A stretch of 48,826 bases of DNA. Source: a virus. A model generated the notes under the pieces. That model made no database searches. It was not told where the DNA came from and saw only the letters and a program-made list of their open reading frames with translations. The number at the start of each line of letters is the position of its first letter. Position 1 is the first letter of the stretch. Of this stretch, positions 30,345-47,964 are shown in pieces. The stretch is from IMG/VR virus record IMGVR_UViG_3300047548_000375, positions 1 to 48,826 of that record; one strand, given 5' to 3'. The position numbers and the translations under genes are program-made.

Positions 30345-30354
30345 AGGATATCTA

Positions 30355-31658: not shown

Positions 31659-32467
31659 GTAGAGGGGTAATTCTATTTGCCTTTAATTCACCGGAGTATA
31701 ATTATGTAAAAATGGCAAACTACACTGCTAAAAGGGTAAAACATTTTTTAGATTTACCAGTAACGCTAATTGTAGACCATAACTCAATAGATTCAGTATC
31801 ACCAGATACCTTTGATAGAATCATCACAGTAGATAGCGATTCAAATAATAATTTTCAAGGTAGAGTTTGGCTTAATAAAGGTCGTTATCAAGCGTATGAT
31901 TTAAGCCCATACGAAGAAACTTTATTATTAGATGTTGACTATGTTATCAACAGCAATAAACTTCTTAAAATTTTTGATTTTATGGATGATTTTTGTTGTC
32001 ACAATACAATTACTTATTTGATGGATAATGATGGTCACACAGAAAAATTTAACCCCAATAATTTAAGTATAGTCACATTATGGGCTACTGTAGTGGCCTT
32101 TAAAAAAACCAAACGTGTTAAACAGATATTTGAGTGTTTAAAAATGGTTCAAGAAAATTATGAACATTACAGTAACATTCATAAATTTTCAATTGATACA
32201 TATAGAAACGATTATGGATTAACTATAGCATTGAAAATTGTTAATGGGCATAGTGATATTAAAACAGATATTATTCCTTGGAATTTGATACACATATTAC
32301 CTGAAACAAATATTTATAAAAGTAAGGATGAACCTTTCAATACAGAATATACAATTTTATACACTAAATGGCGTCGTGGAAAAAGCAAAAAAGAATATAT
32401 TACTTTAAAAGACATGGACTTTCATGTTATTGATAAAAACATATTTTTGGAGTTGATAAATGAATAA
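31655..32467 (+). CDS. GT-A glycosyltransferase-like protein
   Basis: The start is taken at 31655 (MSRGVILFAFN), which has GGAG at 31643-31646 and overlaps the preceding stop as ATGA; an upstream in-frame ATG at 31631 lacks that support. The 270-residue protein begins with a beta strand and a helix (YVKMANYTAKRVKHFLDLPV), as in nucleotide-diphospho-sugar transferase folds. It has a DxD-type element at residues ~90-100 (ETLLLDVDYVI), the expected metal/sugar-nucleotide site. The next gene product is a paralogue: the stretch around SPYEETLLLDVDYVI aligns with SPYEYTIKLEADMFI there. The overall pattern resembles GT8-type or related GT-A enzymes, but donor and acceptor cannot be named. Confidence 0.5.
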   Translation: MSRGVILFAFNSPEYNYVKMANYTAKRVKHFLDLPVTLIVDHNSIDSVSPDTFDRIITVDSDSNNNFQGRVWLNKGRYQAYDLSPYEETLLLDVDYVINSNKLLKIFDFMDDFCCHNTITYLMDNDGHTEKFNPNNLSIVTLWATVVAFKKTKRVKQIFECLKMVQENYEHYSNIHKFSIDTYRNDYGLTIALKIVNGHSDIKTDIIPWNLIHILPETNIYKSKDEPFNTEYTILYTKWRRGKSKKEYITLKDMDFHVIDKNIFLELINE

Positions 32468-33254
32468 AGGATTTATCATCTTAGCACAAAATACCACAGA
32501 TACTGATTATATTAAATGTGCAGAAGTTTTAGCTAAAAGCATAAGAAAAGTAATGCCATCGTCAAATATTTCTTTACTAACAACTAATGTAACTGAAAAT
32601 TTAAATTTTGATAATGTAATACAATTGCCCTATGGTGATTTAGAACCAAATAGTAATTGGAAATTAATCAACGATTGGCAAGTATATGAATCCAGCCCAT
32701 ATGAATATACTATCAAATTAGAAGCAGATATGTTTATTCCTAAATCTATAGATTATTGGTGGGATGTTTTATCTTTAAAAGATATTGTTGTATCCACAAC
32801 AATTAGGAGTTATAATCAACAAATAACTGAAAATAGATTTTACAGAAAATTTATAGATGCTAATAAATTGCCAGATTGTTATAATGCTATTACATATTTT
32901 AAAAAATCAAAAACAGCAGAACAGTTTTTTAATATAGTTAGAAATATATTTGAAAATTGGGAAGAGTATAAATCGATACTTCAGTGTAAAAACGACGAAG
33001 AAGTTACTACAGATTGGGCATATGCATTAGCCAGTCATATTATTGGGGTTGAAAAAACTACACTACCTTCATTTACAGAGATGAGTATGGTTCACATGAA
33101 ACAAATGATTAATAATCTAAACACAAATGATTGGACCGACGAATTGATATATGAAATATTATCACACACAATAAGAATAAACACCGTGCCACAAAAATAT
33201 CCCATTCACTATCATGTAAAAAAATTTGCAAATGAGTTGGAGAAGTATGTATGA
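32460..33254 (+). CDS. Second GT-A glycosyltransferase-like protein, paralogue of the preceding gene
   Basis: The 264-residue protein has the same architecture as its upstream neighbour: an N-terminal strand and helix (KGFIILAQNTTDTDYIKCAE) and an acidic site at residues ~80-97 (SSPYEYTIKLEADMFIPKSI), where ExDM replaces DxD. Later it reads TTDWAYALASHIIGVEKTTL, like the C-terminal acceptor region of GT-A enzymes. The changed acidic motif could mean altered metal use or loss of activity. The ATG overlaps the previous gene by eight bases (ATGAATAA) and has GGAG at 32449-32452. It is probably a glycosyltransferase or a glycosyltransferase-derived binding protein; the substrate is unknown. Confidence 0.48.
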   Translation: MNKGFIILAQNTTDTDYIKCAEVLAKSIRKVMPSSNISLLTTNVTENLNFDNVIQLPYGDLEPNSNWKLINDWQVYESSPYEYTIKLEADMFIPKSIDYWWDVLSLKDIVVSTTIRSYNQQITENRFYRKFIDANKLPDCYNAITYFKKSKTAEQFFNIVRNIFENWEEYKSILQCKNDEEVTTDWAYALASHIIGVEKTTLPSFTEMSMVHMKQMINNLNTNDWTDELIYEILSHTIRINTVPQKYPIHYHVKKFANELEKYV

Positions 33255-33616
33255 GCGTAATTGCTAAGGTTGTAATAATAAACGGTGAAGAGCAGGTTCT
33301 TTTCGAAGAAGTTGAGAATACTGAAGTAGAATTTCGATTGTATTATGATAACGATGGCAAAGTATTATTCTATACATGCGAAAAGCCTGAGGGAAATTAT
33401 ATCGTTATTGATAGCCAAACATATGCTGAAATGCGCCATGATATAAAAATTGTCAATGGGCAAATAACAAAACTTGTTCCCGGAATAATAATTTCTAAAC
33501 TTAAACCTAATTCACATGAAGGAACAATATGTGCCGAAGAAGATGTGAGTATTGTCGTTACTGAAGAATTTAAAGACAAGAGAAAATGGAAATTTCATGA
33601 ATATGAACTCAAATGA
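33251..33616 (+). CDS. Hypothetical 121-residue protein
   Basis: I do not recognise a function. The protein is acidic and beta-rich at the start (VIAKVVIINGEEQVLFEEVE), with a short segment EGNYIVIDSQTYAEMRHDIK followed by IVNGQITKLVPG that resembles small phage proteins I have seen but cannot name. It has no membrane segment, signal peptide or paired cysteines. Translation appears coupled to the previous gene (ATGA overlap, GGAG at 33239-33242). Its last 20 bases overlap the next gene in another frame. Confidence 0.6.
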   Translation: MSVIAKVVIINGEEQVLFEEVENTEVEFRLYYDNDGKVLFYTCEKPEGNYIVIDSQTYAEMRHDIKIVNGQITKLVPGIIISKLKPNSHEGTICAEEDVSIVVTEEFKDKRKWKFHEYELK

Positions 33617-34556
33617 TATAGTTGATGTTGCGGATTTAGATTGCATATATCTTAGCTACGACGAGCCGCAGAAAGAAGAATTTTGGCTCAAAGTAAAGAA
33701 TATGGTTCCTTGGGCAAAGCGTGTTGACGGGGTTAAAGGTAGCGATGCGGCGCACAAAGCTGCGGGAGAAGTCAGTGACACTGAAAGATTTATTTTAATT
33801 GACGGCGACAACATGCCCAATGAAGAATTCTTTAATATTCAATTAGATTTTACCGACAAAGATCCTATTTACAAAAAAGCGCAGTTTCGCTGGAAAGCAA
33901 TAAATCATATCAATGGATTGTGTTATGGTAATGGCGGCATGAGTAGTTGGACAAAAGAATATGTGGCTAATATGAAAACACACGAACATCAAACAGACGG
34001 TGATGTAACTCGCATCGCTGATTTTTGTATGGATGCAACTGATAACATCTATTGGGCAATGTGGGACTGCTACTCAACTACATACCCTAATTACACTCCT
34101 TTTCAAGCATGGCGTGCGGGTTTTCGTGAGGGTGTCAAGATGGTACTAAATAAGGGATTAGTGCCTACTGTTGATGATTTTAAAGAGTCAGTTTCTGACC
34201 GCAATCTAAACAATTTAACTGTTTGGCATAATGTTGGTGCAGATGTTGAGAATGGTATATGGGCTATTTATGGTGCTCGTCTAGGAACCTATATGACTTT
34301 ATTAACTAATTGGGACGCAAAAAATGTTCAATGGTTCGATAACTATATTCAAATGTGGGAAGAACAAGAATACAGAAACCCAGTAACAGAGGCAGAGATT
34401 ATTGGTCAGGTCCTTAAAGATAAATTAGGATTACCTATGTGTATACTTGATTCTGAGCAAAGCAAGTTTTTTAAAAGACACTTAAATAGCAATAGGTATA
34501 ATCGAGGACCTTTGGTTCGTGAAATGGATGTAATTAGAGAAATTGAAGGATGGTAA
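33597..34556 (+). CDS. GT-A-like protein of a T4-like marine phage family
   Basis: The start at 33597 (MNMNSNDIVDVADLDCIYLS) is preferred over 33552, because the 15 codons before it lie wholly inside the preceding gene and have no ribosome site, whereas TGGA lies six bases before 33597. The 320-residue protein resembles a family I recall from T4-like cyanophages. Marks are LDCIYLSYDEPQKEEFW, PWAKRVDGVKGSDAAHKAAG, RFILIDGDNMPNEEFF (a DxDN element, as in GT-A sites), then HINGLCYGNGGMSSWTKEY and YSTTYPNYTPFQAWRAGFRE. A sugar-nucleotide transferase role is inferred from the DGDN element and fold pattern; no activity is known to me. It ends as a TAATG overlap with the first radical SAM gene. Confidence 0.55.
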   Translation: MNMNSNDIVDVADLDCIYLSYDEPQKEEFWLKVKNMVPWAKRVDGVKGSDAAHKAAGEVSDTERFILIDGDNMPNEEFFNIQLDFTDKDPIYKKAQFRWKAINHINGLCYGNGGMSSWTKEYVANMKTHEHQTDGDVTRIADFCMDATDNIYWAMWDCYSTTYPNYTPFQAWRAGFREGVKMVLNKGLVPTVDDFKESVSDRNLNNLTVWHNVGADVENGIWAIYGARLGTYMTLLTNWDAKNVQWFDNYIQMWEEQEYRNPVTEAEIIGQVLKDKLGLPMCILDSEQSKFFKRHLNSNRYNRGPLVREMDVIREIEGW

Positions 34557-35503
34557 TGGAACACAAATATTATAAGTTAGTTCATAGTAACCCGGCGCAC
34601 GAAGATTGGTTTGTAGTTAATTGGTGTTTAGGAAATACGTGTAATTTTTCGTGTTCTTATTGTCCATCCCACTTACATGATGGTTCAAAACCATGGCCTA
34701 CACTAGAAAACATAAAAGCGTTTATAACAAAAACTGTTGAGCAAACTTATCCCAGAAAGGTATATTTTGAATTCACAGGAGGCGAAGTAACACTGTACAA
34801 ACACTTTATTGAAATATGTCAGCATTGTACGGATCTAGGTGCTAAAGTTGGTTTGATTAGTAATGGGTCACGCACACTACGTTGGTGGGAAGAAAACAAA
34901 AAATACTTTGACCACGTGTGCTTGAGTTTTCACCCGCAATTTGCAGATGCTGACCATTTTATTGAAGTTGTCAAATTGTTACATGAAGATATAAGAACTC
35001 ACGTGAACATCATGATGGATCCTGACATGTTCGATTATTGCTATGCTATTGCAAATAAAATTAAAAACTTAGGCAACCTAAGTATGGCATTGCAACCATT
35101 AATTCATGATTTTGGCGATACGTTATATGATTATACACCTTCTCAGAAAAATATATTTGATAAGCAACATGAATTGATTACTAGACATATTAAATTTACA
35201 AAATCTTTTGACTATTATAGAGGTGCAATGAGATTGTTGTATAACGATGGAACTTCTGAAATAAGTAGCGCACACAGATTTATAAGTTTTAAAACTAATG
35301 ATTGGAGTGGTTGGAAGTGCTATACTGGTGTAGAACAAGTTGTTGTTGACATGGATGGTAGTATTTGGCGAGGTTGGTGTCGTGTGGGCGGTCTCATTGG
35401 TAACATTATTGATAAAGAATTGGTTATCCCTACAGAACCTATTATTTGCAACAAAACAATGTGCCATTGTAATTTTGATATTATGTCTACCAAAGAAAAA
35501 TGA
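34556..35503 (+). CDS. Radical SAM protein with C-terminal SPASM/twitch-like domain
   Basis: The start at 34556 (MEHKYYKLVHSN) is chosen because GAAGGA at 34545-34550 lies five bases upstream; the in-frame ATG at 34550 overlaps that site. The 315-residue protein has the SAM/[4Fe-4S] motif C29-x3-C33-x2-C36 (NTCNFSCSYC). Its glycine-rich motif reads FTGGEVTL instead of GGEP. The C-terminal third holds Cys255, 275, 298, 303 and 305 around GWKCYTGVEQVVVDMDGSIW and CRVGG, an auxiliary Fe-S domain of SPASM/twitch type. The same domain is found at the N-terminus of the minus-strand protein at 43939. As a radical SAM enzyme it would cleave SAM to a 5'-deoxyadenosyl radical; the substrate is unknown. 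Confidence 0.85.
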   Translation: MEHKYYKLVHSNPAHEDWFVVNWCLGNTCNFSCSYCPSHLHDGSKPWPTLENIKAFITKTVEQTYPRKVYFEFTGGEVTLYKHFIEICQHCTDLGAKVGLISNGSRTLRWWEENKKYFDHVCLSFHPQFADADHFIEVVKLLHEDIRTHVNIMMDPDMFDYCYAIANKIKNLGNLSMALQPLIHDFGDTLYDYTPSQKNIFDKQHELITRHIKFTKSFDYYRGAMRLLYNDGTSEISSAHRFISFKTNDWSGWKCYTGVEQVVVDMDGSIWRGWCRVGGLIGNIIDKELVIPTEPIICNKTMCHCNFDIMSTKEK

Positions 35504-36861
35504 AAAACCCATTAGATACAACATGCGATTTAAAATGGAATTACCCTATATTTGGTATGGATCGAGGAGAATTCAGAAGTTGTTGCAGAACACCAACTAA
35601 TCTTGTATCCGAGAAAGACTTGCAAGAATTTGGTATAGATGCATTTTTGAATTCTCCTAAACAACGACAAGAACGATTAGACTTAATTCAAGGGATAAGA
35701 ACAGAAGCATGTGCTAGCTGCTGGCGTTTAGAAGACTCAGGTATTCAGAGTCCTCGCCATCATCCTAAACAGATGTGGTGGCAATTAATTAAATCAGAAC
35801 AAGTTAGACCAAGTGAATATTCGGATGGGAAACTAAAACTAGAACTAAGCAAAATAAATGATATAAATCATCCTGCTCTTTACAGTTACAAGCCATATAT
35901 GCTTGAAATAAGCATGGGCAATACATGTGATTTAAAATGTATGTATTGCAGCCATCATTACTCTACTCAGTGGGCAACTGAGAGGATTAAGTTTGGTGAG
36001 ATAACACAAGAACAATACGACAGAGAATTTCCTAAGGCACCCCCTAGTTTCGAAGGTAAATTTTGGGAATGGTTCAATCAATATGGTCGTTATAGTATTA
36101 CACGATTAGGGTTAATCGGTGGCGAGCCATTAATCATGCCAGAGTTCTATACATTTATGGATAAAGTAATTGCTAGTGTAGAAGAAATCAATAACCAACG
36201 TAAGGAAAAGATTACCTTGTGGATCGTTAGCAATTTGAATACGCCGCCAAACTACTTACAGCGTGTAATGGAATACTTACCTAAGATATCTAAAGTGTTT
36301 AAGCTAGAGATATTAGGTAGTATGGAAAGTGTAGGACCTAAAGCAGAATATATTCGCAACGGTGTAAGTTGGGACCGATTTACTAAAAATGTCGATACTA
36401 TACTAAGCAACAAAAACTTAGAGTTTGACTTTGGTTTTATTATGAGTCTGAACGCACTAAACATGACAAGTGTAAAAGATTTTATTGCATATACAAAAGA
36501 GTTACACGAGAAGCACGGCAGGTCAGTGACACTAAAGCAAAACTTAATCAGTTTTCCTAGCTGGCAAAGTCCTATGATATTATCACAGGAGTTTATCCCA
36601 TATATTGAAGATACTATTAAGTATCTTAACCAGAATGCTGGTAGTATGCCTGTTGTTAAAGATCCATTAGGATCATGGTCAGCTTACGCAAAGTTCTTGC
36701 AGACAATCATCGATGGAATTAATAACCAAAATATTGATAGAACACACGATAGAAAGAAATTTGCTGAATGGTTCGATACGTATGACAGTAGACGAAATTT
36801 GAATCTAGTATCAGTATTTCCAGAATATACTAATTTTTATAATATGTGTAAGAGCCTATGA
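35500..36861 (+). CDS. Radical SAM protein with N-terminal twitch domain
   Basis: The 453-residue protein has an auxiliary-cluster-type domain first (Cys9, 28, 29, 71, 74; ending CASCWRLEDSG) and then the radical SAM core with C143-x3-C147-x2-C150 (GNTCDLKCMYC) and the SAM-binding IGGEPLIMPEF. This order matches the family named twitch domain-containing radical SAM protein, whose function is not known. The protein at 44997-46352 is a full-length paralogue with identical N-terminal cysteine positions. It overlaps the previous gene as ATGA. Other visible core segments are LWIVSNLNTPPNYLQRVMEY and KLEILGSMESVGPKAEYIRN. Confidence 0.85.
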   Translation: MKNPLDTTCDLKWNYPIFGMDRGEFRSCCRTPTNLVSEKDLQEFGIDAFLNSPKQRQERLDLIQGIRTEACASCWRLEDSGIQSPRHHPKQMWWQLIKSEQVRPSEYSDGKLKLELSKINDINHPALYSYKPYMLEISMGNTCDLKCMYCSHHYSTQWATERIKFGEITQEQYDREFPKAPPSFEGKFWEWFNQYGRYSITRLGLIGGEPLIMPEFYTFMDKVIASVEEINNQRKEKITLWIVSNLNTPPNYLQRVMEYLPKISKVFKLEILGSMESVGPKAEYIRNGVSWDRFTKNVDTILSNKNLEFDFGFIMSLNALNMTSVKDFIAYTKELHEKHGRSVTLKQNLISFPSWQSPMILSQEFIPYIEDTIKYLNQNAGSMPVVKDPLGSWSAYAKFLQTIIDGINNQNIDRTHDRKKFAEWFDTYDSRRNLNLVSVFPEYTNFYNMCKSL

Positions 36862-38228
36862 TTAATAAAAAGAACTTTATACCTATAATAGAGCAGAATC
36901 CACAAAAGGTTAATCTTGCACGAGCTATAGCAGAAGAATTAGATGATAAGTATGACCTAGACTTGAAATCGGTTGTATATGGTAATGGCGACTGGACAGA
37001 TGGATTACGAAAAAAAGTTCCACCGAATCTATGTTTGTACCCATTCACGCATTTTCAATTAGATCCTGATGGTAGAGCAAGACCGTGTTGTAAGTATAAA
37101 GTAGGTGATGCATCTTGGCAACAAAATGTTCCCAAATTACCTGATGTAGACATAGGTGAATTATGGGACCAAGAAGAATTTCAATTATTGCGTGACCAGT
37201 TTTTACGAAATATGCGTCCTAGTGGTTGCAAGGCATGTTGGGATGAAGAGGCGGCAGGTATTAAGAGTATGCGTATGCAACGTGAAGAATGTGGTACACA
37301 ACATCCATTCGCTACATTCTTTCATCACATACCCAGAACTTATCCAAAGACATTAGACTTGAAACTTAGTAATCTATGTAACTTGAAGTGTAGAATATGC
37401 ACTCCGTTTTTAAGCAGTCAGTGGATTAAAGAAACAAAAGACTTGAATGTTATTGATATGGGGTTCCAAGAGAGCTTTGTCAATAACTCACGTGAAAAAT
37501 TCAGCGCTAATCCTAATAACGAAGAAATTTTAAAGCAGTGGGCCCCTACGATTGACTTTTTAGAATTTTACGGTGGCGAACCATTAATGCAACAGGAGCA
37601 TAACAAAATTTTAAGAATAGTCACCGAGCACGGAAAACCATCAAATACAGGACTGTACTACAACACCAATGGAACAATATGTGATGAAGAATTCTTTAAG
37701 CTATGGGCATCATTCAAAGAAGTTATAATTAACTTTAGCATAGACGATATCGGTGAACGTTTTGAATACCAGAGAAAAAATGCTAAATGGAATGAAGTAT
37801 TGAAGAACATAGAAATGTATAAAGAGTATAGTAAAAAATATAATGTGAATATGACATTAAAATTTTATACTACTGTTGGTATATTGAATGTCTTTTATTT
37901 GGATGAGTTTATAAACTATGTAAAACAGTATAACATACCTGTAATGTTAAACATGGTTCATTATCCTCATCATTTTTCAATTGTAAACTTACCCGACAAA
38001 GTTAAGCATGTCATAAAAGAAAAGCTATTAACAATTGATGAACAAAACATTTTGGATCCATGGTCGCCCAAAATAGAAAATATAATTAATTTCATGTATG
38101 GCAATACAATTGACGATAAAATATATAAATTGTTTTTTGAAAAGGTAAATATACATGATGCATACAGAAACGAATCATTTGAGACAACGTTTCCTGAATT
38201 TTATAAAATATTAAAATCACATGAATAA
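36858..38228 (+). CDS. Radical SAM protein with N-terminal twitch domain
   Basis: The 456-residue protein carries ~55 extra residues at its N-terminus, then an auxiliary Fe-S domain: Cys59 (LCLYPFTHFQLDPDGRARP), Cys77-78, Cys124 and Cys127 (CKACWDEEAAGIKSMR). The core has C174-x3-C178-x2-C181 (LCNLKCRIC) and FYGGEPLMQQEH. The LDPDGRARPCC stretch is typical of SPASM/twitch cluster ligands, but found at the N-terminus rather than the usual C-terminus. It is closely related in layout to the next protein, including the CxxCWDEEAAG element. ATGA overlap with the previous gene. The substrate is unknown. Confidence 0.85.
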   Translation: MINKKNFIPIIEQNPQKVNLARAIAEELDDKYDLDLKSVVYGNGDWTDGLRKKVPPNLCLYPFTHFQLDPDGRARPCCKYKVGDASWQQNVPKLPDVDIGELWDQEEFQLLRDQFLRNMRPSGCKACWDEEAAGIKSMRMQREECGTQHPFATFFHHIPRTYPKTLDLKLSNLCNLKCRICTPFLSSQWIKETKDLNVIDMGFQESFVNNSREKFSANPNNEEILKQWAPTIDFLEFYGGEPLMQQEHNKILRIVTEHGKPSNTGLYYNTNGTICDEEFFKLWASFKEVIINFSIDDIGERFEYQRKNAKWNEVLKNIEMYKEYSKKYNVNMTLKFYTTVGILNVFYLDEFINYVKQYNIPVMLNMVHYPHHFSIVNLPDKVKHVIKEKLLTIDEQNILDPWSPKIENIINFMYGNTIDDKIYKLFFEKVNIHDAYRNESFETTFPEFYKILKSHE

Positions 38229-39390
38229 TACTTTTTGTGTCATGCCATGGGTGAATTTATCCACTGATGTTAACGGATCACTACGGCCTTGCTGTAAATT
38301 TGCACAGCCTGACCCACGAAATGAATATCAATTACCTAATATGAAAGAAGGTAGTTTAGATGTATTATGGAACGATGAAAGATTTCAGAATCTCAGACAG
38401 GCATTCTTAGATGGTAAAAAGCCAAAAGAATGTCAAAGTTGTTGGGATGAAGAGGCCGCAGGAGTACAAAGTTTTAGAGTACAATTTGCAGAACATAAAA
38501 AGATTGATTTAACTAAAATAGAATTTACGCCTATTGCTAAAAATGGCCCACGGGCATTAGATTTAAAATTGAATAATGTTTGTAATTTGAAATGTAGGAT
38601 ATGCGGAGCACAAGCAAGTTCTACGTTCCTAAAAGAATATCAGGAACGATTCAATATCAAAGTTGAAGATGGTGCATATTGGTTATCAAACAAAATACTA
38701 GGAACACAAAACGAATCTGTAATTGCGGAATGGGCAAAAGATTTGGTTCATTTAGAAGTCACTGGAGGCGAACCAATGGCTAGCCCCGAGAATATCAAAG
38801 TGTTGGAATTGTTAATCAGTGCAGGTAAATCGAAAGAAATTACTATATTGTTAAACACTAACGGTACACTATACAATAAGAGATTTATTGATTTGTTATT
38901 ACAGTTTAAAACAGTTACCTTATGTATATCAATTGACGATATACATGAAAGACTAGAGTATGAAAGATATCCAACTGAATGGAATGTGATTCAAGATAAT
39001 CTTCAAAAGTTTTTAAAATTGCGTGAGGAAAATCGTAATTTGTTTTTAACACTATGCCCTACTGTTAGTAACTTTAATGTTTATTACCTAAATGAATATG
39101 TTGCTTGGGCTAAACAGCTAAATATTCATACCTATTATAATATATTACATTATAGTCCTAGTCACAGTATTAAGAACTTGCCAGACCATTTAAAAAACAT
39201 AGTAGCTGAAAGATTAACATTACCTGAATTTACAGAAGTTAAAAGGTTTCTATTACTGGACAGGGATAATGATAATCTTATTCAAGAGTTTATAAAAACC
39301 ACTGTTGAATTAGATGAATATAGAAAACAAAGTTTTGAACAAACATTCGGTGAGTGGGGTAAATTAGTGATGAGATGCAAAAATGGATAA
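38221..39390 (+). CDS. Radical SAM protein with N-terminal twitch domain
   Basis: The 389-residue protein has the compact form of this architecture. Auxiliary-domain cysteines are Cys6 (FCVMPWVNLSTDVNGSLRP), Cys24-25, Cys71 and Cys74 (CQSCWDEEAAGVQSFRVQ). The core motif is C121-x3-C125-x2-C128 (VCNLKCRIC), followed by EVTGGEPMASPEN and ILLNTNGTLYNKRF, the usual strand and Asn-Gly turn of the SAM-binding half barrel. It shares the segments LDLKL.N.CNLKCRIC and ISIDDI.ER.EY with the upstream protein, so the two are paralogues. Its start overlaps the previous gene by eight bases (ATGAATAA). Confidence 0.85.
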   Translation: MNNTFCVMPWVNLSTDVNGSLRPCCKFAQPDPRNEYQLPNMKEGSLDVLWNDERFQNLRQAFLDGKKPKECQSCWDEEAAGVQSFRVQFAEHKKIDLTKIEFTPIAKNGPRALDLKLNNVCNLKCRICGAQASSTFLKEYQERFNIKVEDGAYWLSNKILGTQNESVIAEWAKDLVHLEVTGGEPMASPENIKVLELLISAGKSKEITILLNTNGTLYNKRFIDLLLQFKTVTLCISIDDIHERLEYERYPTEWNVIQDNLQKFLKLREENRNLFLTLCPTVSNFNVYYLNEYVAWAKQLNIHTYYNILHYSPSHSIKNLPDHLKNIVAERLTLPEFTEVKRFLLLDRDNDNLIQEFIKTTVELDEYRKQSFEQTFGEWGKLVMRCKNG

Positions 39391-40555
39391 TGTATTAAGT
39401 CAAATAGAAGTAGAAAAGTATAATCAGAAACGCAGAGACTTTGACAAGTCTAGAGAAATCAATACAATTAGTCCCTGTGTCGCACCATATAATAATATGT
39501 ATTTTACAACAGAAGGACATGCTGCACCTTGTTGGCTGTTAGTGGGCCATTTAGAAAAATGGGGCCCAAATAGGTCTATTCGTGATATATGGTTCGGTGA
39601 ATATTTTACACAATACAGAGAGAATTTAAAGAAAAATACTTTCAATAGTAAATGCAGAGTATGTAAACAGAAAATAGAAGCTGATACTTGGCCTCTTGCT
39701 ATGGCATATGATGGGTTTAAAGTAAAAGATTATCCAACATGTTTAGAATTAGAGTTAAGCAATCAATGTAATTTAGAATGCGTAATGTGTGAGGGTAGAT
39801 TAAGTTCTGGTATAAGAAAAAATAGAGACAAAATGCCACCGTTACCAATGGTATATGATGACAGTTTTGTAGAACAGTTAAAAGAATTTATTCCGCATTT
39901 ACAAGAATTAAGATTTAACGGTGGCGAACCATTTGCACAAAAAATTGTTTATGACATTTGCATGTTAGTTGCCGAATTAAATCCTGGATTAAGAATTAAT
40001 ATTGCAACAAACGGAACCGTATATAATAAACAAGTTAGAACTATACTAGATAAATGTAATATCCATTTAAATATTAGTATTGATAGCCTGGATAAACAGA
40101 ATTACGAATCAATACGTATTAATGGTGACTTTGATGTACTAATGGAAAACTTCAAAATCTTTAATCAGTATTGTAAGGACAATAATCGTGGGCTAAGTGT
40201 CATGGTAAATCCTATGCGTAATAACTGGTGGGAAATGCCCAACTTTGTTAGATTCACTAATAACAATGGTGTACATTTGTGGTATAATACTATTCATCAC
40301 CCTGAACATTTAGGTATTTGGAATTTACCTAGTAATACTTTAAAAGAAATACTAGTAACCTTAACTCCTGTAGTTGACGAGTTAAAACCCATAGACCATT
40401 CTAATTATGTAGCTCATGGTAATTGGGAAAAATTTGACCACTTTGTTAATAAACAAATAACGAATTGGTATAATAAACAATTAGCTAGAGAACAAGAAAC
40501 AATTAGAAATACCATACCAATAATAGAAGCAAATAGTTATAGGGGTTTAAAGTGA
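39383..40555 (+). CDS. Radical SAM protein with variant N-terminal twitch domain
   Basis: The 390-residue protein has the radical SAM motif C129-x3-C133-x2-C136 (QCNLECVMC), RFNGGEPFAQKI and NIATNGTVYNKQ. The N-terminal auxiliary domain is altered: Cys32 (PCVAPYNNMYFTTEGHAAPC), a single Cys50 followed by Trp where the sister proteins have a Cys pair, then Cys91 and Cys94 (KCRVCKQKIEADTW) without the following CWDEEAAG. It may therefore ligate its auxiliary cluster differently. The eight-base overlap with the previous gene is ATGGATAA. Reaction and substrate are unknown. Confidence 0.83.
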   Translation: MDNVLSQIEVEKYNQKRRDFDKSREINTISPCVAPYNNMYFTTEGHAAPCWLLVGHLEKWGPNRSIRDIWFGEYFTQYRENLKKNTFNSKCRVCKQKIEADTWPLAMAYDGFKVKDYPTCLELELSNQCNLECVMCEGRLSSGIRKNRDKMPPLPMVYDDSFVEQLKEFIPHLQELRFNGGEPFAQKIVYDICMLVAELNPGLRINIATNGTVYNKQVRTILDKCNIHLNISIDSLDKQNYESIRINGDFDVLMENFKIFNQYCKDNNRGLSVMVNPMRNNWWEMPNFVRFTNNNGVHLWYNTIHHPEHLGIWNLPSNTLKEILVTLTPVVDELKPIDHSNYVAHGNWEKFDHFVNKQITNWYNKQLAREQETIRNTIPIIEANSYRGLK

Positions 40556-41379
40556 AGAAAATTTTATTAAATGGCTGTAGTTTTGTTGCAGGAGATGCAC
40601 TGACATGGAATACGCACTACCATGATATTGATTGGATGAAACACATTTTTTATAGAAAATTACACCCTGTATATACAAGCAAGCAAGTACAACAATTTTA
40701 TCTAAATTATAAAGATAATTTACGAGGGAAAGATAACCTTAGTGGTCAATTAAATAAAATATTGAACGTTGATGTGGTCGATATTTCTGAAGATGGTAAT
40801 TCTAATGATGCTATAACCGTAAAAACTATTTCTTACCTAGAAAAATTGTCTGCTGAAGAAAGAAAAAACTATCATGTTTGTGTAGGTTGGACTGAATTCA
40901 CTAGAAGAATGGTTTGGATGTCAAATTTTAATACATTTTTCTCACTTCACAATTCACATTTAAATAATTCAACTTTTGAAGATAGACACCAATTTATTAA
41001 AGAAGTTATAGTTAATTCTCCTGACCAGGATCATTACACTAATTTTTTTAATAATGTTTTTTTCCTACAATGCTATCTGAAACTAAACAACATATCATAT
41101 ACTTTTTGGAGAAGTTTGGGTAACTCGTCGTCTATGTTTACAACATCTGATGATTCAATAGCAATAAAAAATATGCACCTACGGCATGATAAAATTTTAA
41201 ATAAAGAAGATTGGATCAGCTTTGATAATGAAGAATATCCATGGTTAGGAAAAGTTTGGTGGGATATTCTTAGTGAAAACAAACACACTATTAATAATGA
41301 AAATCTCCACCCTAATTTGGAAGGAGTTATTCAATTTTCTAATAGAATTGCTCCTAAAATTAAGCCGCTCGTTCAATAA
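40552..41379 (+). CDS. SGNH-hydrolase-like protein
   Basis: The GTG start at 40552 is supported by AGGGG at 40541-40545 and by a GTGA overlap with the previous stop. The 275-residue protein opens with KKILLNGCSFVAGD, which matches SGNH block I with Gly-Cys-Ser in place of Gly-Asp-Ser. An Asn-containing segment (EDGNSNDAITVKTISYL) fits block II/III, and the C-terminus has NLHPNLEGVIQFSNRI, where HPN resembles the block V His. SGNH enzymes often remove or add acyl groups on glycans; that would fit the neighbouring sugar-related genes, but activity is not shown. It overlaps tail-to-tail by 20 bases with the minus-strand gene at 41360. Confidence 0.55.
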   Translation: MKKILLNGCSFVAGDALTWNTHYHDIDWMKHIFYRKLHPVYTSKQVQQFYLNYKDNLRGKDNLSGQLNKILNVDVVDISEDGNSNDAITVKTISYLEKLSAEERKNYHVCVGWTEFTRRMVWMSNFNTFFSLHNSHLNNSTFEDRHQFIKEVIVNSPDQDHYTNFFNNVFFLQCYLKLNNISYTFWRSLGNSSSMFTTSDDSIAIKNMHLRHDKILNKEDWISFDNEEYPWLGKVWWDILSENKHTINNENLHPNLEGVIQFSNRIAPKIKPLVQ

Positions 41380-43939
41380 CAATTAACCCTTCGACTTGAT
41401 TGCTAATCTTCCAATTAGAATCTAGAAACAAATTAACACCCTTTGTTATTTTATCATCCGACTCATATTGATGAACTAACATTTTTCCTTCTTTGGTTAA
41501 TATGTTGGAGAAGAACGTTAGGTTGTTTAGTAATCTATCAGTGTCGGGTATTGAAAATAATATTAGGTCGATTGATGCAGGCCATTTATAATAATTAGGT
41601 TCGGCATAAGGATCTATAATATTTGATATATTCTTAAATTTCTGCAAAAGAAAGTTTCTTGCTAGCCTACCAGTCAAATCTTCATTTTTTAATTTTTGAA
41701 TATTCTCTAACCACGAATATACTTTTTCTTTTGGAATGGATAACTGTCTTGCTAAATCTAATAATTGTATAACTAACCACGGTTCATCTGTTTGTGGCAT
41801 TAAAGGATGTTCTTCATTTGCATGAAATGGGTTGCAAGTAATCACGTTTAATGTTTTATTAGCGTTCGCAATTATTGCGGCTCTACCACCGGGATTGTGT
41901 CCAATATCAACTGCGTCTCCGTTCGCCGGAGTATTTCTTGCAATTTCATGTAGAAAATTTCTTTCTGCGATTGCCATGGAAGAAAAACAACTTTCTAATG
42001 TTAACTCTGCAGGTCTTGTATCAGTTGCTATATAGAATATTTTTCTTAGAGTTGTCTTTTTGCTAGTAACCCATGTACCAGATGATTCGTATGTGTACTC
42101 AAAATCTTCTACTCCGGGTATATGAGTTTCAGTATGAGTAAATTTGTACGTGTTCAGCACACTGTAATTACCTTTGTCATCAATTTTAAATCTAATTCTC
42201 GCATTGAATGAATATTTGTCAGGATCCATTGCAAAGATAAAATCTTGTCTGTCTAGTTCATCACTGAAATTTAAAGTAATTTCATACCCTCCCTTGATTC
42301 TCCATAGCATTCTTAGGAAGCCAAATACTTCATTCATAATACTATTGGCAAAATCACCGTGTTCTGAATTGATTATGTTGTAGTCAAAATCTTCATAGTC
42401 AATTTCAGTTGAAATTTCCTCAGTATCAAAATCTATAGAAAAATGTTTGGTTATATCACCTACAGAATGCACATTTGTTAATGTTCCTCCGTATTGTTTG
42501 CACAGATACAACCAAATATGCATGAGTTTGATTCTAATCATTCTATGCAATCTAGTATTCTTCATATCTAGTGTATACCATCCACCTAAAAATGGTTTGT
42601 TTCGTGGGTTTATGTTATACTTTTCACGATTGTCATAGTCTGAGCCGTAGTTGTCTCCTAGACCGGGCCCCGGGCTTACGGCAAGAATCCTAGCTCTATG
42701 GTTCCATAACATGTTAAAGCTGTGCGTAAATGCCTCTATATCTTCTCCGGGCGCGCCTATCACCCAACATGCAGAGACTTGCATCCCTGCTTTAGCACTG
42801 TCGATTAAATTTTGATTTATTTCAGCTACTGTATTTTTCTTGTTAATAAGTTTCAATACCTTGTCGCTACCGGTTTCAATACCATAATTAAACCCCTGAC
42901 ATCCTGCAGCCTTCATTAATTTGTAAAATTCTAAATCCATCCTACCGTCGCATCTAGCGTAGCCCCACCAGGTTATACCTAAATTTCTTTCGACTAAACC
43001 CTCACAGAATTTTCTAAACTCTTTTAAGTTCCCGTTCATTAAGCTATCAACAAAGGACACAAAGTTTATACCATATTTGTTAACCTGATATTCTAGTTCA
43101 TCGATGACGTTAACGGATCCTCTGTCTCTGAATTTCCAATAATATACTTCTGTACAATAACTACACTTAGCAATACATCCTCTACTAATTTCAGCACATA
43201 TAGAATTTTTACCCCAGTACTTTTCTAAATCAAAGTCTGAATAGTCAGGGTATGGCAAGCTGTCAATATCAATACGTGTGTCGCTGTATAAACTTCCGAT
43301 TGATGTTTTATTTGGTTTAATTCCCTGTTCCCAATTACTTAGGAAATCTAAGATGTGCTGTTCACTTTCCCCTATAAAATAGTAATCAGCCTCCGGTATC
43401 ATTTTAAAATTGCGTTCGTGGCACTGCGGACCGCCCATGATTATTGTAACATTGGGTTTAATTTTTTTAATTTCTCTTATCATCCACTCAGTAGGATGCA
43501 AATTGGTATAATATGTACTAAATCCTATGATATCAGTATCTTCTTCCAGTATTTTGTTTAAGTAGTTTCGAAGTATGGATTCGTATGTAGGATGAATTCT
43601 TTTTGAATATTCTGGTTCTTGCCACCAATAATAGTTTGCACCATTCCATGCATCAGCTAAATCGGGATTAGCCTCTTTCAATGCATAATGTGATTCAACG
43701 TTGAAATCAAAGACTCTGGTATAATATCCTGCTTCTCTAGTCAATGCTGATAGTCTTGCTAGATTATAGGGAGGCATGTATATAGCCCAGCTACCTAATA
43801 CACATAATGTTATTTTAGTTTTTCTAGTAGCGGAAATGACACCAACTGGTTTTACATTTAATCTAAGTTTTCTTTCATTTGGTGCTGTATTTTTAGGGAA
43901 CACATTCTCCGCTAACCAAGTATCTTTATCCATTGCCAT
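41360..43939 (-). CDS. B12-binding-type radical SAM protein fused to a C-terminal methyltransferase-like domain
   Basis: The 859-residue protein has three parts. Residues ~40-200 form a Rossmann, cobalamin-binding-type domain (YMPPYNLARLSALTREAGYY, DIIGFSTYYTNL, KPNVTIIMGGPQCHE). Residues ~245-460 are the radical SAM core with C255-x3-C259-x2-C262 (SRGCIAKCSYC), NYGIETGSDKVL and a G-A-P-G-E element. Residues ~660-859 look like a class I SAM methyltransferase: motif-I-like AVDIGHNPGGRAAIIANA, then NVITCNPF, SIDLILFSIPDTDRLLNNLT and a closing strand pair. The classic DxHxxG cobalamin-ligand motif is not visible, which is common in this superfamily. Class B enzymes of this type often methylate unreactive carbons. 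It is last in a three-gene minus-strand run; its start overlaps the previous stop as TAATG. Confidence 0.8.
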   Translation of the reverse strand: MAMDKDTWLAENVFPKNTAPNERKLRLNVKPVGVISATRKTKITLCVLGSWAIYMPPYNLARLSALTREAGYYTRVFDFNVESHYALKEANPDLADAWNGANYYWWQEPEYSKRIHPTYESILRNYLNKILEEDTDIIGFSTYYTNLHPTEWMIREIKKIKPNVTIIMGGPQCHERNFKMIPEADYYFIGESEQHILDFLSNWEQGIKPNKTSIGSLYSDTRIDIDSLPYPDYSDFDLEKYWGKNSICAEISRGCIAKCSYCTEVYYWKFRDRGSVNVIDELEYQVNKYGINFVSFVDSLMNGNLKEFRKFCEGLVERNLGITWWGYARCDGRMDLEFYKLMKAAGCQGFNYGIETGSDKVLKLINKKNTVAEINQNLIDSAKAGMQVSACWVIGAPGEDIEAFTHSFNMLWNHRARILAVSPGPGLGDNYGSDYDNREKYNINPRNKPFLGGWYTLDMKNTRLHRMIRIKLMHIWLYLCKQYGGTLTNVHSVGDITKHFSIDFDTEEISTEIDYEDFDYNIINSEHGDFANSIMNEVFGFLRMLWRIKGGYEITLNFSDELDRQDFIFAMDPDKYSFNARIRFKIDDKGNYSVLNTYKFTHTETHIPGVEDFEYTYESSGTWVTSKKTTLRKIFYIATDTRPAELTLESCFSSMAIAERNFLHEIARNTPANGDAVDIGHNPGGRAAIIANANKTLNVITCNPFHANEEHPLMPQTDEPWLVIQLLDLARQLSIPKEKVYSWLENIQKLKNEDLTGRLARNFLLQKFKNISNIIDPYAEPNYYKWPASIDLILFSIPDTDRLLNNLTFFSNILTKEGKMLVHQYESDDKITKGVNLFLDSNWKISNQVEGLIVIERAA

Positions 43940-45000
43940 TATTTTCTATCTCCGAATAGTAAGAAATCTTCTTTCTTGTACCCGACCATAATCTCAGATC
44001 CTGAACCTTCATTAGGTGCGCTGTTTTTATTATTAAGACTTCCCCTAATAGGAACAATAGCCCAAGTGCAATAGTCTTTGAAGTATGGTAAATTCTTTAA
44101 TTCTTCTTCCAGGCTAAGTGTTTCTTCAACATTGTGTGGTGCCATCATAAACTTAACTTCTAAGTGACCTACACCTACATTTTTATTTTCAGCTTTTTCT
44201 TTTGCGACTGCTTCAACAACTTTAACGAATTTTGCTCTATCGTAGAATTCAAAGTGTACTGATAAGTTCAAATCACCGTAGTGAATAATTTCCTGATAGT
44301 AATCGGGCTTTCGACTTCCATTACTGTGCAAGCTAACGTGATGCCCACATGCGTTTAAATAACGTAGCCAATCTAAGAAATCTTTGTTAACTGTGGGCTC
44401 GCCACCGCTAATAATGAAATTAACGCTTTCTCCCTTAGTAAACTTACTTTCAATCAAGTGAGTAGCTCGCATTAATTCTTCTAGTGATTTATGTGGATCA
44501 GTATTGTTATGAATCCATGGCCAACAATAACTGCAATCATAATTGCATCGACGACCTATTTCCCAGTAAATTTGCTTCTGCGTACTAGCATGAGTTCTTT
44601 CCATACTAACAAAATCGGTTAAGTCTGGTTTATGCAATTCGGGTTGTACGGGTAAATTTTGTCCTTTTCTTAATGTACCTACAAATTCTATTTTGCTTGC
44701 TTTTGGAATAAACAAATCAGCACCACAGCTACATACATTTTTTGTACAGTCGATCCAATCGTTTGGTACATTAAAATCATCCCACACACTTCCTAATTTA
44801 CCACCTACTCGGCAACTTGCAGTCCAAACACCGCCATCCATGTCTATGAATAAACTATCAACACCTGCCCCACACTTCCATCCTGTAAGATAATTAAGTC
44901 TCGCACCTACTAATTCGTCAGTGGACCAATCTCTCCATTTACCTTCACTATTGTATGTTCTAATGGGTTTGCCGGGTGTAAATTCATAATTGTCTGTCAT
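43939..45000 (-). CDS. Radical SAM protein with permuted N-terminal SPASM/twitch-like domain
   Basis: In this 353-residue protein the auxiliary Fe-S domain comes first: Cys43, 63, 85, 90 and 92 around GWKCGAGVDSLFIDMDGGVW and CRVGGKLGSVW. The core follows with C152-x3-C156-x2-C159 (RRCNYDCSYC), IISGGEPTVNKDF and SLHSNGSRKPDYY. The cysteine spacing (20, 22, 5, 2) is almost the same as in the C-terminal domain of the protein at 34556 (20, 23, 5, 2), so the domain order is reversed between the two. GGAG precedes the ATG, which overlaps the upstream stop (ATGA). The phrase WEIGRRCNYDCSYCWPW is reminiscent of QueE-like organising radical SAM proteins, but no specific reaction can be named. Confidence 0.83.
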   Translation of the reverse strand: MTDNYEFTPGKPIRTYNSEGKWRDWSTDELVGARLNYLTGWKCGAGVDSLFIDMDGGVWTASCRVGGKLGSVWDDFNVPNDWIDCTKNVCSCGADLFIPKASKIEFVGTLRKGQNLPVQPELHKPDLTDFVSMERTHASTQKQIYWEIGRRCNYDCSYCWPWIHNNTDPHKSLEELMRATHLIESKFTKGESVNFIISGGEPTVNKDFLDWLRYLNACGHHVSLHSNGSRKPDYYQEIIHYGDLNLSVHFEFYDRAKFVKVVEAVAKEKAENKNVGVGHLEVKFMMAPHNVEETLSLEEELKNLPYFKDYCTWAIVPIRGSLNNKNSAPNEGSGSEIMVGYKKEDFLLFGDRK

Positions 45001-46352
45001 TGTGTTTCTCCACAGCGTTTATAAAAATCTTTAAATTCAGGGAAAGTTTCTATAAAATTAAGACCGCGCAATTCATCAAAGTCTTTGAACCAAGAATAAA
45101 ATTCTTTTCTTAATTCTTTTTGGTCAGTGTCGCTATTTTTTATACTATCTCTTAAATTTATTAAAAAGTTTGTGTATGTATCCCAACGTCCAAAATGGTC
45201 ATGAAAGTTAGGCATCGATTCTTGCACAGAAGTGATCCATTCTATTGCATCGGTGAGATAGTCAGCAAAATCAGGAGTAAGTATGAAAGGAGTATGACAA
45301 TTAGGCCATGTTACGATGTTTTGTTTTAACATCACTGGTTTTCCTGTAGTTTGACTTATATTATATACCCATTGCAAAAACTTTTTGTATCTAGGAATAC
45401 TCAGTGCAGTAATACTAGGTAAAAACCCCAACGTAACCCTATCATTCTCTTTAGTTGCATCGAATAACTTATATACATTATTTTCAAAACGCTTCCATTC
45501 TAAACCGTTCCTAATGTATTCAGCTTGTTCTTCTGTACTTTCCATGCTAATTAAAATTTCTAATTTGAATTTTTCATTTAACTTAGGAAGATAATTCATT
45601 AACCTGTTGAAATAATTTTCAGGTGTATGTAAATTAGTTACTATCCATATTGTTGTGTCATTATTAGGTACATCTTTGTATACTTCTAACAATCTATCGA
45701 TAAATGGATAAAAGTCAGGCGTGATTAATGGCTCGCCTCCTATAATGCCAATTCTATTCAAACTATGCTTTGCTTCTTGATCTACCCATTTCCAAAATAA
45801 GTCAATGAATTCTTGGTTAGGTGATCCCGATACTTCATTGTATGTTTCTTGAGAAATTTTAAATTTTTTCAAACTCTCAGTAGCCCATTGACTGCTGTAC
45901 ACGTGGTTACAATACATGCATTTTAAATCGCATGTATTTCCTAAACTGACTTCTAGCATGAATGGTTTATGGCTTCTGAGAATCTTAGAATCCAATGTTA
46001 CTTGCTCTGACACTACATCCATGTTTGAGTCAGAAAACTCCTCAAACATATTTAGGTTATGTGCCATATTTATAAATCCTTCATGGCTGTTTCCCCTAAG
46101 GCTAACTGCACCTTTATCTTCTATCTGCCAGCACTGCCCGCAATCACCGTGCCTTTCACCCTTAATCATTTCAAATCTTCTTTGTATCTGATATTCTGTA
46201 TTCAAAAAAAGATTAATGTCATAAGTAGACATATCCTCTTTGCTCACTGATTGAAAGGGAGTTTTACAGCAAGTTCTTATTTGATTTCTGGTTAAACTGA
46301 TATTGGGATAACCCCAGCGTAAATGACAAAGACTTTTTTCGTATGGAGGCAT
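44997..46352 (-). CDS. Radical SAM protein with N-terminal twitch domain, paralogue of the gene at 35500
   Basis: The 451-residue protein is a full-length paralogue of the 453-residue protein at 35500. The auxiliary-domain cysteines occupy the same residues (9, 28, 29, 71, 74), and CGQCWQIEDKG matches CASCWRLEDSG. The core has C141-x3-C145-x2-C148 (GNTCDLKCMYC) and IGIIGGEPLITPDF, followed by IWIVTNLHTPENYFNRLMNY as in the sister protein. It is first in the minus-strand run and has a CATAAATA octamer 19 bases upstream, with no clear ribosome site. The substrate is unknown; the duplication suggests two related substrates or sites. Confidence 0.85.
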   Translation of the reverse strand: MPPYEKSLCHLRWGYPNISLTRNQIRTCCKTPFQSVSKEDMSTYDINLFLNTEYQIQRRFEMIKGERHGDCGQCWQIEDKGAVSLRGNSHEGFINMAHNLNMFEEFSDSNMDVVSEQVTLDSKILRSHKPFMLEVSLGNTCDLKCMYCNHVYSSQWATESLKKFKISQETYNEVSGSPNQEFIDLFWKWVDQEAKHSLNRIGIIGGEPLITPDFYPFIDRLLEVYKDVPNNDTTIWIVTNLHTPENYFNRLMNYLPKLNEKFKLEILISMESTEEQAEYIRNGLEWKRFENNVYKLFDATKENDRVTLGFLPSITALSIPRYKKFLQWVYNISQTTGKPVMLKQNIVTWPNCHTPFILTPDFADYLTDAIEWITSVQESMPNFHDHFGRWDTYTNFLINLRDSIKNSDTDQKELRKEFYSWFKDFDELRGLNFIETFPEFKDFYKRCGETQ

Positions 46353-46379: not shown

Positions 46380-46487
46380 AGTATAAGTATGGGATTTTTT
46401 AAAAATTGGATATCAAAGTTAATCAGAGAATACAAATATCGCAAGAGACTAAAAGAACTCAAAAAGCGTGACCCTTTTATTTACTAA
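46377..46487 (+). CDS. 36-residue basic micro-protein ending DPFIY, paired with the carbamoyltransferase
   Basis: The frame ATG...TAA encodes 36 residues: an amphipathic start (MGFFKNWISKLIREYKYRK from the second Met) and a Lys/Arg-rich end (KRLKELKKRDPFIY). The stop is one base before the carbamoyltransferase ATG, which argues for coupling. Small proteins with a terminal PFIY element occur beside NodU-type carbamoyltransferases (the DUF5989 type); the resemblance here is limited to that ending. An internal ATG at 46389 would give 32 residues. The first ATG lies only seven bases from the late promoter octamer, so the message may be almost leaderless. Function unknown; a partner or anchor for the enzyme is possible. 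Confidence 0.55.
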   Translation: MSISMGFFKNWISKLIREYKYRKRLKELKKRDPFIY

Positions 46488-46488
46488 A

Positions 46489-47964
46489 ATGAATTATTTA
46501 GGTATTTCTTCTGGTTTTCATGATGCAGCAGTCACGTTATTAAACCATGACGGGTCTATATTATTTGCTGGACACAGTGAAAGATATAGCAAGAAAAAAC
46601 ACGACAAATCACTTTCTATTGATTTAATAAAAGATGCAACCAAATATCAAACAGACGCCTCTGAGATTCATTATTACGAAAGACCTTGGTTAAAGTCATT
46701 GAGACAATTACGATCAGGAGAATCTATTTCACATTTGACTGCCAGTAATGCTATAGGACAACAGTTCTTAACTTTATTAGATAATCCAAAGATTCATACA
46801 TATAACCATCATTTATCTCACGCAGCCGCGGGATTTCAAACAAGTCCATTTGAAGATGCAACCGTTGTGGTGATTGATGCCATAGGTGAGTTTGATACCA
46901 TTACTATATGGGATGCTAGATATGATGAAAACGGATTTGCAAAATACAAAAAGTTGTATAGCAAAAAATATCCTAACAGCATTGGATTGTTCTACTCTGC
47001 AATGACTAAAAAAGTAGGATTGCAACCAATGGATGAAGAATATATTTTGATGGGTATGGCAGCATACGGTCAACCTAAATATTTAACTGAAATGTTATCA
47101 TTATTTGATAGTGTTTCGGACGTACATTTAAAAGAAAATTTACATATAGGTGTTCCTGACAATTTCTTAGATTATGCGGACCCAATGGACATTGCGAGTA
47201 GCGCACAACATTTAGTTGAATGGATGATTAAACAAGTGATAGCTAGAGCTAGATACTTGGGCTCCAGTAAAAATCTAGTATACGGTGGCGGCGTAGCATT
47301 AAACTGTCTTGCCAATAGGTTATTAGGAGATTACTTCGAAAACATTTGGATTATGCCTAATCCCGGAGATGCAGGAAGTAGTCTTGGCGCAGCGGCCTTA
47401 GGATACGGCAGAAAGTTAAATTGGACTGATGCATATTTAGGTCATGATATACCCGGGGCGTACCCCACAAATCGTTTACTAGACCACCTTATGACTGATA
47501 AAATAGTAGGTGTAGCTAGTGGACGAGCCGAATTCGGTCCTAGAGCTTTAGGAAATCGTAGTTTATTAGCGGATCCAAGAGGTTTCGAAATTAAGGATAA
47601 AGTAAATGCAATCAAACGTAGACAAAAATTTCGACCCTTTGCCCCTGTTATTTTGGAGGAATATATTGATAGTTACTTTTATATGCCTCGCAATTGGAAT
47701 AACAGTAGGTATATGCAAGTCATCGCTACTTGTAGGAATCCTGACTTATTTCCTGCTATCGTTCACCATGATGGGACTAGTCGTGTACAGAGCGTACCAA
47801 AAAATGGTACGGGAATCAGAGAACTACTAGAAAAGTGGTATATTCTAACTGGCTGTCCTATGCTACTTAACACATCGTTAAACATCCGCGGTGAACCAAT
47901 GGTTAATAATAGACATGATGCTGATAGGTTTGAAAATCTATACGGCGTTAAAGTCATGTCATAA
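46489..47964 (+). CDS. NodU/CmcH-family O-carbamoyltransferase
   Basis: The ATG at 46489 (MNYLGISSGFHDAAVTLL) is preferred over the in-frame GTG at 46468, since family members start with this Kae1-like strand and the ATG abuts the micro-ORF stop. The 491-residue protein has the expected motifs: the metal-site region NHHLSHAAAGF near residue 105, VVVIDAIGEFDTITIW, GGGVALNCLANRLL near 265, PNPGDAGSSLGAAALGYG, and the C-terminal YrdC-like part with AEFGPRALGNRSLLADPR, FRPFAPVI and NTSLNIRGEPMV. The family moves a carbamoyl group from carbamoyl phosphate via carbamoyl-AMP to a hydroxyl of a sugar or small molecule. Typical members are ~550-600 residues, so this one is short but complete. The acceptor is unknown; the neighbouring sugar-related genes suggest a glycan. 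Confidence 0.88.
   Translation: MNYLGISSGFHDAAVTLLNHDGSILFAGHSERYSKKKHDKSLSIDLIKDATKYQTDASEIHYYERPWLKSLRQLRSGESISHLTASNAIGQQFLTLLDNPKIHTYNHHLSHAAAGFQTSPFEDATVVVIDAIGEFDTITIWDARYDENGFAKYKKLYSKKYPNSIGLFYSAMTKKVGLQPMDEEYILMGMAAYGQPKYLTEMLSLFDSVSDVHLKENLHIGVPDNFLDYADPMDIASSAQHLVEWMIKQVIARARYLGSSKNLVYGGGVALNCLANRLLGDYFENIWIMPNPGDAGSSLGAAALGYGRKLNWTDAYLGHDIPGAYPTNRLLDHLMTDKIVGVASGRAEFGPRALGNRSLLADPRGFEIKDKVNAIKRRQKFRPFAPVILEEYIDSYFYMPRNWNNSRYMQVIATCRNPDLFPAIVHHDGTSRVQSVPKNGTGIRELLEKWYILTGCPMLLNTSLNIRGEPMVNNRHDADRFENLYGVKVMS

Follow-up and report, generated by a model that had tools for sequence, protein, structure and literature searches.

A radical SAM gene cassette downstream of phage tail-fibre genes is a candidate glycan-tailoring island

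Here we present an analysis of a radical SAM (rSAM) gene cassette in IMG/VR record IMGVR_UViG_3300047548_000375, a 48.8-kb linear virus record whose baseplate wedge protein is most similar to its counterparts in RaK2/121Q-type jumbo myoviruses; the whole stretch of 48,826 nucleotides is called the window below. Eight consecutive rSAM open reading frames (ORFs) span 34550-46352, R1-R5 on the plus strand and R6-R8 on the minus strand, in two convergent operons without gaps. Adjacent genes overlap by 1-20 bases, and the sole gap, of 115 bases, lies between R8 and the carbamoyltransferase gene CTase498. The cassette genes are the following.

34550-35503, plus strand: R1, rSAM core (CxxxCxxC from C31) followed by a C-terminal auxiliary cysteine domain; Pfam Radical_SAM E 6.6e-12, invariant cysteines, permutant of R7 by profile comparison
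35500-36861, plus strand: R2, N-terminal-twitch rSAM (C143); NF033640 256 bits
36858-38228, plus strand: R3, N-terminal-twitch rSAM (C174); NF033640 331 bits
38221-39390, plus strand: R4, N-terminal-twitch rSAM (C121); NF033640 312 bits
39383-40555, plus strand: R5, divergent N-terminal-twitch rSAM (C129); NF033640 154 bits (below cut-off), Pfam SPASM and Radical_SAM
40552-41379, plus strand: SGNH-like hydrolase/acyltransferase-like protein (DUF6071-like); GCSF motif near the N-terminus, weak Pfam DUF6071 match
41360-43939, minus strand: R6, B12-binding rSAM (C255) with a long C-terminal extension; Pfam B12-binding and Radical_SAM
43939-45000, minus strand: R7, N-terminal auxiliary cysteine domain followed by the rSAM core (C152), circular permutant of R1; Pfam and profile comparison
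44997-46352, minus strand: R8, N-terminal-twitch rSAM related to R2 (C141); NF033640 238 bits

Each of the eight proteins has one CxxxCxxC motif, which arises by chance in 0.15-1.8% of composition shuffles, depending on the protein, and each has Pfam or NCBIfam rSAM matches that are independent of the motif. An earlier note on this DNA had described eight rSAM proteins in two opposing operons, and all eight ORFs were indeed found on the strands it gave. Seven of its motif positions were also reproduced; its C29 for R1 presumes translation from the second ATG (34556), the start that is also found in most relatives. Its count of seven proteins with SPASM/twitch-type extra cysteines was correct, R6 being the exception, but that label merges two kinds of domain: the N-terminal twitch of R2-R5 and R8, and a distinct five-cysteine auxiliary domain common to R1, at the C-terminus, and R7, at the N-terminus. 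In relatives of R1 the invariant residues are C31/35/38 and C257, 277, 300, 305 and 307.

Searches against rSAM subfamily models, which the note had proposed, assign R2, R3, R4 and R8 to the NCBIfam N-terminal-twitch rSAM family NF033640 (curated cut-off, 170 bits), with R5 just under it. R1 (21.5 bits), R7 (28.3 bits) and R6, which has no listed match, are not members, and for R1 and R7 no NCBIfam model scores above its curated cut-off. R2 and R8 fall slightly below the Pfam rSAM cut-off (23.8 and 26.4 vs 29.5), while both exceed that of NF033640, a family in which no member is known to have an assigned function. R6 alone among the eight has a B12-binding domain, which precedes its rSAM core; its sole sequence match in the PDB is the apramycin enzyme 6fd2, from an aminoglycoside pathway, and by eye its C-terminal extension looks like a class I methyltransferase. 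In a pair of near-identical contigs (L032/L104 vs L058/L103), R2 is a single frame in one and split into ORFs of 73 and 372 amino acids in the other, reflecting either mutation or an assembly error. The DUF6071 match of the SGNH-like protein, weak in the window copy, is above cut-off in relative L012.

In order to place the cassette in a wider context, 2.9 million viral contigs were scanned, yielding 20 R3 loci, 49 R7 loci and the best 80 of 88 R1 loci; collapsing R1 from these best 80 of 88 contigs at 95% identity gave 51 lineages. Many contigs are fragmentary and partly redundant, the genes of relatives are mechanical ORFs, and the lineages were drawn from R1-, R3- and R7-based searches, so that the bracketing figures below are conditional on those searches.

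Profile comparison revealed that R1 and R7 share both of their domains in swapped order, R1 being core-auxiliary and R7 auxiliary-core. The auxiliary domains are 38% identical (E 1.5e-20) and the cores 29% (E 9e-21); the auxiliary-auxiliary score is 101, against at most 24 in 40 column shuffles, and the cross comparisons of core with auxiliary domain are empty. By these sequence comparisons, R1 and R7 are circular permutants. Scanning all fetched loci gave 90 distinct core-auxiliary and 72 distinct auxiliary-core ORFs, and the window holds exactly one of each. In all 23 contigs with both genes, the pair lies on opposite strands, face to face, and encloses 2 to 10 other genes; the smallest sets enclose two or three, one such set encoding a sulfotransferase-like protein together with a methyltransferase and a DUF6492 protein. 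Close copies of R7 are convergent with R1 in 15 of 15 lineages. Elsewhere, R1 is accompanied by a more distant R7 relative that shares its strand (19 of 19 lineages) and, in 15 of the 19, is the immediate next gene. Since such R1-R7 tandems exist, tandem duplication would be a natural route to the permutation.

Upstream of R1, and on the far side of R8, lie the following genes.

29127-30344, plus strand: TF405, tail fibre/spike protein with a C-terminal chaperone-type domain; Pfam Peptidase_G2 (IMC autoproteolytic domain) E 1.6e-7, PHROG virion structural matches
30355-31305, plus strand: TF316, Thr/Gly/Asn-rich putative tail fibre protein (T 18%, G 13%), conserved in position upstream of the cassette in relatives; no family match in PHROG or Pfam
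31353-31658, plus strand: s101, small conserved protein in the conserved order tail fibre, s101, glycosyltransferase (GT)-like genes; no PHROG match
31631-32467, plus strand: GT278, GT-A-like; DxD at residues 101-103 in 29 of 29 aligned sequences, no Pfam match
32460-33254, plus strand: GT264, GT-A-like; (E/D)xD at residues 88-90 in 29 of 29 aligned sequences, no Pfam match
33251-33616, plus strand: s121, small conserved protein, order conserved in relatives
33600-34556, plus strand: p334, putative GT-A glycosyltransferase (start assumed near 33600; mechanical ORF 33552-34556); D68-x-D70-N71 motif, fold, R1 fusions
46468-47964, plus strand: CTase498, O-carbamoyltransferase (NodU/Nol-like); Pfam Carbam_trans_N and _C, PHROG 1601 E 7.7e-94

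The cassette had been placed directly after the tail fibres; in fact, the tail-fibre genes (29127-31305) are separated from it by s101, the two GT-like genes, s121 and p334. The order tail fibre, s101, GT278, GT264, s121, p334, R1 recurs in many contigs. Among the 47 R1 lineages with enough upstream context, p334 lies within three genes upstream in 33, or 37 when R1 proteins with a long fused N-terminus are included, and a profile search of that N-terminus showed, in four lineages, a direct fusion of the p334 domain to R1. Downstream, at least two rSAM genes are present in 47 of the 47 lineages with enough context, and at least five in 25 of them. The gene set therefore co-occurs in many phage lineages, the opposite of the pattern named in the earlier note as its refutation, namely genes that never co-occur in related phages. 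R1, p334 and GT264 had no match among 50,697 phage records, and this set thus yielded no cultured phage that carries R1.

The D68-x-D70-N71 motif of p334 is invariant in 23 aligned sequences. Its structural model (predicted local distance difference test score, pLDDT, 88) matches PDB folds weakly, nearly all of them GT-A or nucleotidyltransferase, and a sequence search of the PDB with p334 returned nothing. In larger contigs, twitch rSAM genes are mostly confined to the cassette location; a 524-kb viral contig (G008) carries two more far from its cassette (C1:8807-9970 and 44098-45312).

The far side of R7 also holds recurrent genes. In many relatives (L022, L025-L029 and L055-L057), ORFs of 1187-1477 amino acids, stop to stop, lie on the minus strand next to or near R7 and have a second p334-like GT domain near the C-terminus; the island may therefore extend past the end of the window. 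Elsewhere in the window, a single plus-strand ORF of 6169 amino acids (9796-28305), rich in Ser, Thr, Asn and Gly with marginal FG-GAP, BNR and similar matches, would by position be a giant tail or adhesin protein, and a 195-bp unit occurs in two tandem copies (88% alike) at 48335-48744, after the carbamoyltransferase gene and near the contig end. Sigma70 and terminator scans gave nothing beyond the level in shuffles.

The cargo carried with R1 and R7 changes strongly from phage to phage. Counts of non-rSAM cargo were 40 sulfotransferase-like ORFs (a cluster named partly by motif), 27 SGNH-like, eight methyltransferase, six NTP-transferase and six UDP-sugar dehydrogenase ORFs, and proteins of the HAD phosphatase, nucleotidyltransferase and cytidylyltransferase types also occur between or after R1 and R7. 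Sulfotransferases, SGNH proteins, methyltransferases, sugar dehydrogenases and nucleotidyl- or cytidylyltransferases make up the enzyme repertoire of surface-glycan chemistry. The phage cassettes yielded no flippase, polymerase, ligase or ABC exporter; a simple hydropathy scan for transmembrane (TM) proteins placed four TM segments in one of the 203 cargo ORFs, and of the 180 bracketed ORFs not one had two or more. With almost no membrane proteins in the cassettes, the acceptor is probably cytoplasmic rather than part of an export pathway; a virion protein is the most plausible one, with the tail fibre as the obvious candidate because the position next to the tail-fibre genes is conserved.

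R1 is not confined to phages. It occurs sporadically in Bdellovibrionota, with more distant forms in a Clostridium and a planctomycete; a locus binned with a gammaproteobacterium (L159) is a phage contig. In 273 genomes of two Bdellovibrionota classes, R1 was found at E <1e-100 in five, all five of which also have R7, and weaker R1-like and R7-like matches occur in other genomes with the partner absent. The neighbours at single loci include a Wzm/Wzt-like ABC transporter (L156), a DegT-type sugar aminotransferase (L157) and a GT2 glycosyltransferase (L158). In a Bdellovibrionaceae metagenome-assembled genome (L155:1722-8051), an R1-R7 tandem lies between two flagellin genes, beside a protein with a marginal GDSL match, a setting that hints at flagellin modification. 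The R1 tree has little resolution and gives no indication of which way the gene moved between phages and bacteria.

Taken together, these features point most probably to a cassette that modifies a glycan chain, carried either by the phage tail itself or by the surface of the host. The reading that we favor, with moderate confidence, is a phage glycan-tailoring island downstream of the tail fibres, with GT-A-like enzymes, a conserved R1/R7 rSAM pair, exchangeable decoration cargo and a virion acceptor. In this scheme, the three DxD-type, GT-A-like enzymes GT278, GT264 and p334 would build a short sugar chain or link it to its acceptor. R1 and R7, each with the domain order of the other reversed, would carry out a conserved radical reaction on that sugar, perhaps as partners. 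The final decoration would then be set by the carbamoyltransferase and the exchangeable cargo (twitch enzymes R2-R5 and R8, the B12-type R6 and the SGNH-like protein in the window; sulfo-, methyl-, nucleotidyl- and cytidylyltransferases in relatives), and the product would be a variable glycan coat on a virion protein. A bolder proposal, offered tentatively and rather unlikely in our estimation, is that R1 and R7 are a partner pair, as a heterodimer or in successive steps, for one radical reaction on a tail-attached glycan; this would be a new kind of rSAM system, permuted by gene duplication, with conserved coding ends that let phages recombine decoration genes. The dedicated tailoring pathway suggested in the earlier note gains from the recurrence of the set beside tail-fibre and GT-like genes in many lineages, with either a virion or a host acceptor. 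Of the glycan, peptide or virion surface it had offered as targets, the cargo, the p334-R1 fusions and part of the bacterial context favor the glycan, and a stand-alone precursor peptide is disfavored, as the overlapping genes leave no room for one inside the operons.

The same cargo could serve a different target, in that the cassette might alter the host surface polysaccharide during infection, for instance to exclude superinfecting phages or help release, and leave the virion untouched. Envelope glycans typically bear decorations of the O-carbamoyl, sulfo, SGNH and methyl types, and the exporter at the homologous bacterial locus L156 fits such a role; the phage cassettes, however, lack any recognized flippase, polymerase, ligase or clear multi-TM protein, and their conserved place behind the tail-fibre genes points to late expression, alongside virion components. 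We regard modification of the host glycan as a serious possibility that is nevertheless improbable on balance. We judge it unlikely that the rSAM enzymes modify protein side chains in the manner of ribosomally synthesized and post-translationally modified peptide (RiPP) maturases, with a tail-fibre protein as substrate. The R1 core is weakly similar in sequence to EpeE/YydG and SkfB and resembles several peptide maturases in fold, and TF316 and TF405 are Thr/Asn/Gly-rich; against this, the cassette operons contain no precursor peptide gene, no RiPP maturase equivalog in NCBIfam scored over cut-off for any cassette protein, and the cargo is that of sugar-nucleotide chemistry. A substrate encoded elsewhere, including a tail-fibre protein, would be compatible with the absence of an adjoining precursor gene.

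Viperin is the top PDB fold match of R1, and the PADLOC pVip model matches both R1 (E 6.9e-19) and R7 (E 2.3e-15), which would point to an antiviral nucleotide or to inter-phage conflict. We rejected this as highly improbable: the match is limited to about 100 core residues, the scores against the NCBIfam viperin model NF038283 (64 bits for R1 and 45 for R7) are far under its cut-off of 180 bits, the cargo is of glycan type, and both proteins have the extra five-cysteine domain, which is not known in viperins. It is equally hard to credit that the cassette is a chance accumulation of unlinked metabolic genes at a hot spot. The strong turnover of cargo between phages would fit such a collection, but the R1/R7 bracketing in 23 of 23 contigs, the p334-R1 fusions and the repeated co-occurrence of R1 with R7 in bacteria argue otherwise.

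Several observations weigh against a virion glycan-tailoring island. The R1 model (pLDDT 85.5) resembles sugar-acting and peptide-acting rSAM enzymes alike, its neighbours being the peptide maturases EpeE, SkfB and SuiB, the sulfatase maturase anSME, the sugar enzymes DesII, BtrN and SpeY, and the nucleoside enzyme BlsE, and therefore its fold leaves the substrate unfixed. The best-supported fold match of p334, the PBCV-1 capsid GT (E 1.3e-3), falls short of strict significance at E 0.001, and no glycosyltransferase that would initiate the chain was identified. The upstream tail-fibre/GT block is missing or altered at some R1 loci, such as L091-L094, and one bacterial R1-R7 pair (L183) has no obvious glycan neighbours. 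Several phage contigs (G016, G288, G289, G292 and G303) have R1 without R7; R7 is thus common, not universal, and contig ends may account for some of these cases.

If the glycan-tailoring reading is correct, environmental phages hold a modular, virus-encoded system that re-decorates a surface glycan by radical chemistry, comparable to O-antigen variation. It would place rSAM families without assigned function (the NF033640 twitch proteins, R1 and R7) in one pathway, supply the rSAM superfamily with a clear example of circular permutation, and tie phage tail evolution to sugar chemistry. The Bdellovibrionota R1-R7 pair offers a second setting, in cells, in which to study it.

The earlier note had called so many rSAM genes rare in a phage, which is generally true, but the window is not unique: the marine T4-like contig TARA_ERS488813_N000010 was described by Nishimura et al. 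2017 (PMC5332604) with 12 rSAM genes, which they interpreted as auxiliary metabolic genes related to Fe-S. Compared by description only, the two are alike as phage sequences with many rSAM genes; the part of that account at hand mentions no paired permutants, tail-fibre linkage or glycan cargo. Beyond that paper, the openly searchable literature, a body that lacks most subscription papers and preprints, yielded no account of paired permutants, a tail-linked cassette or virion glycosylation with rSAM enzymes. Among cultured phages, Vibrio phages KVP40 (L191) and K566 (L190) have clusters of several rSAM genes, including one convergent pair in KVP40, where they lie near QueC-like and nadV genes. 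These proteins are distantly similar to R4 (about 20-27% identity), and the two fetched regions contain no core or auxiliary domains of the R1/R7 type. BtrN, SpeY, DesII and AprD4 resemble the cassette enzymes in combining an rSAM core, with or without an auxiliary cluster, with action on sugars or cyclitols, as reflected in the fold matches of R1 and the match of R6 to 6fd2, but their identity to R1 is low (11-18%), and to our knowledge no permuted pair occurs among the rSAM enzymes of aminoglycoside and sugar pathways. Finally, bacterial O-antigen and capsule clusters share with the cassette the combination of conserved ends and variable sugar-modifying cargo; they differ from it in that no polymerase, flippase or exporter was found in the cassette, that its flanks are rSAM enzymes, and that it lies beside tail-fibre genes. 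We therefore read the cassette as a phage-borne glycan modification island, of a known sort but of unusual composition.

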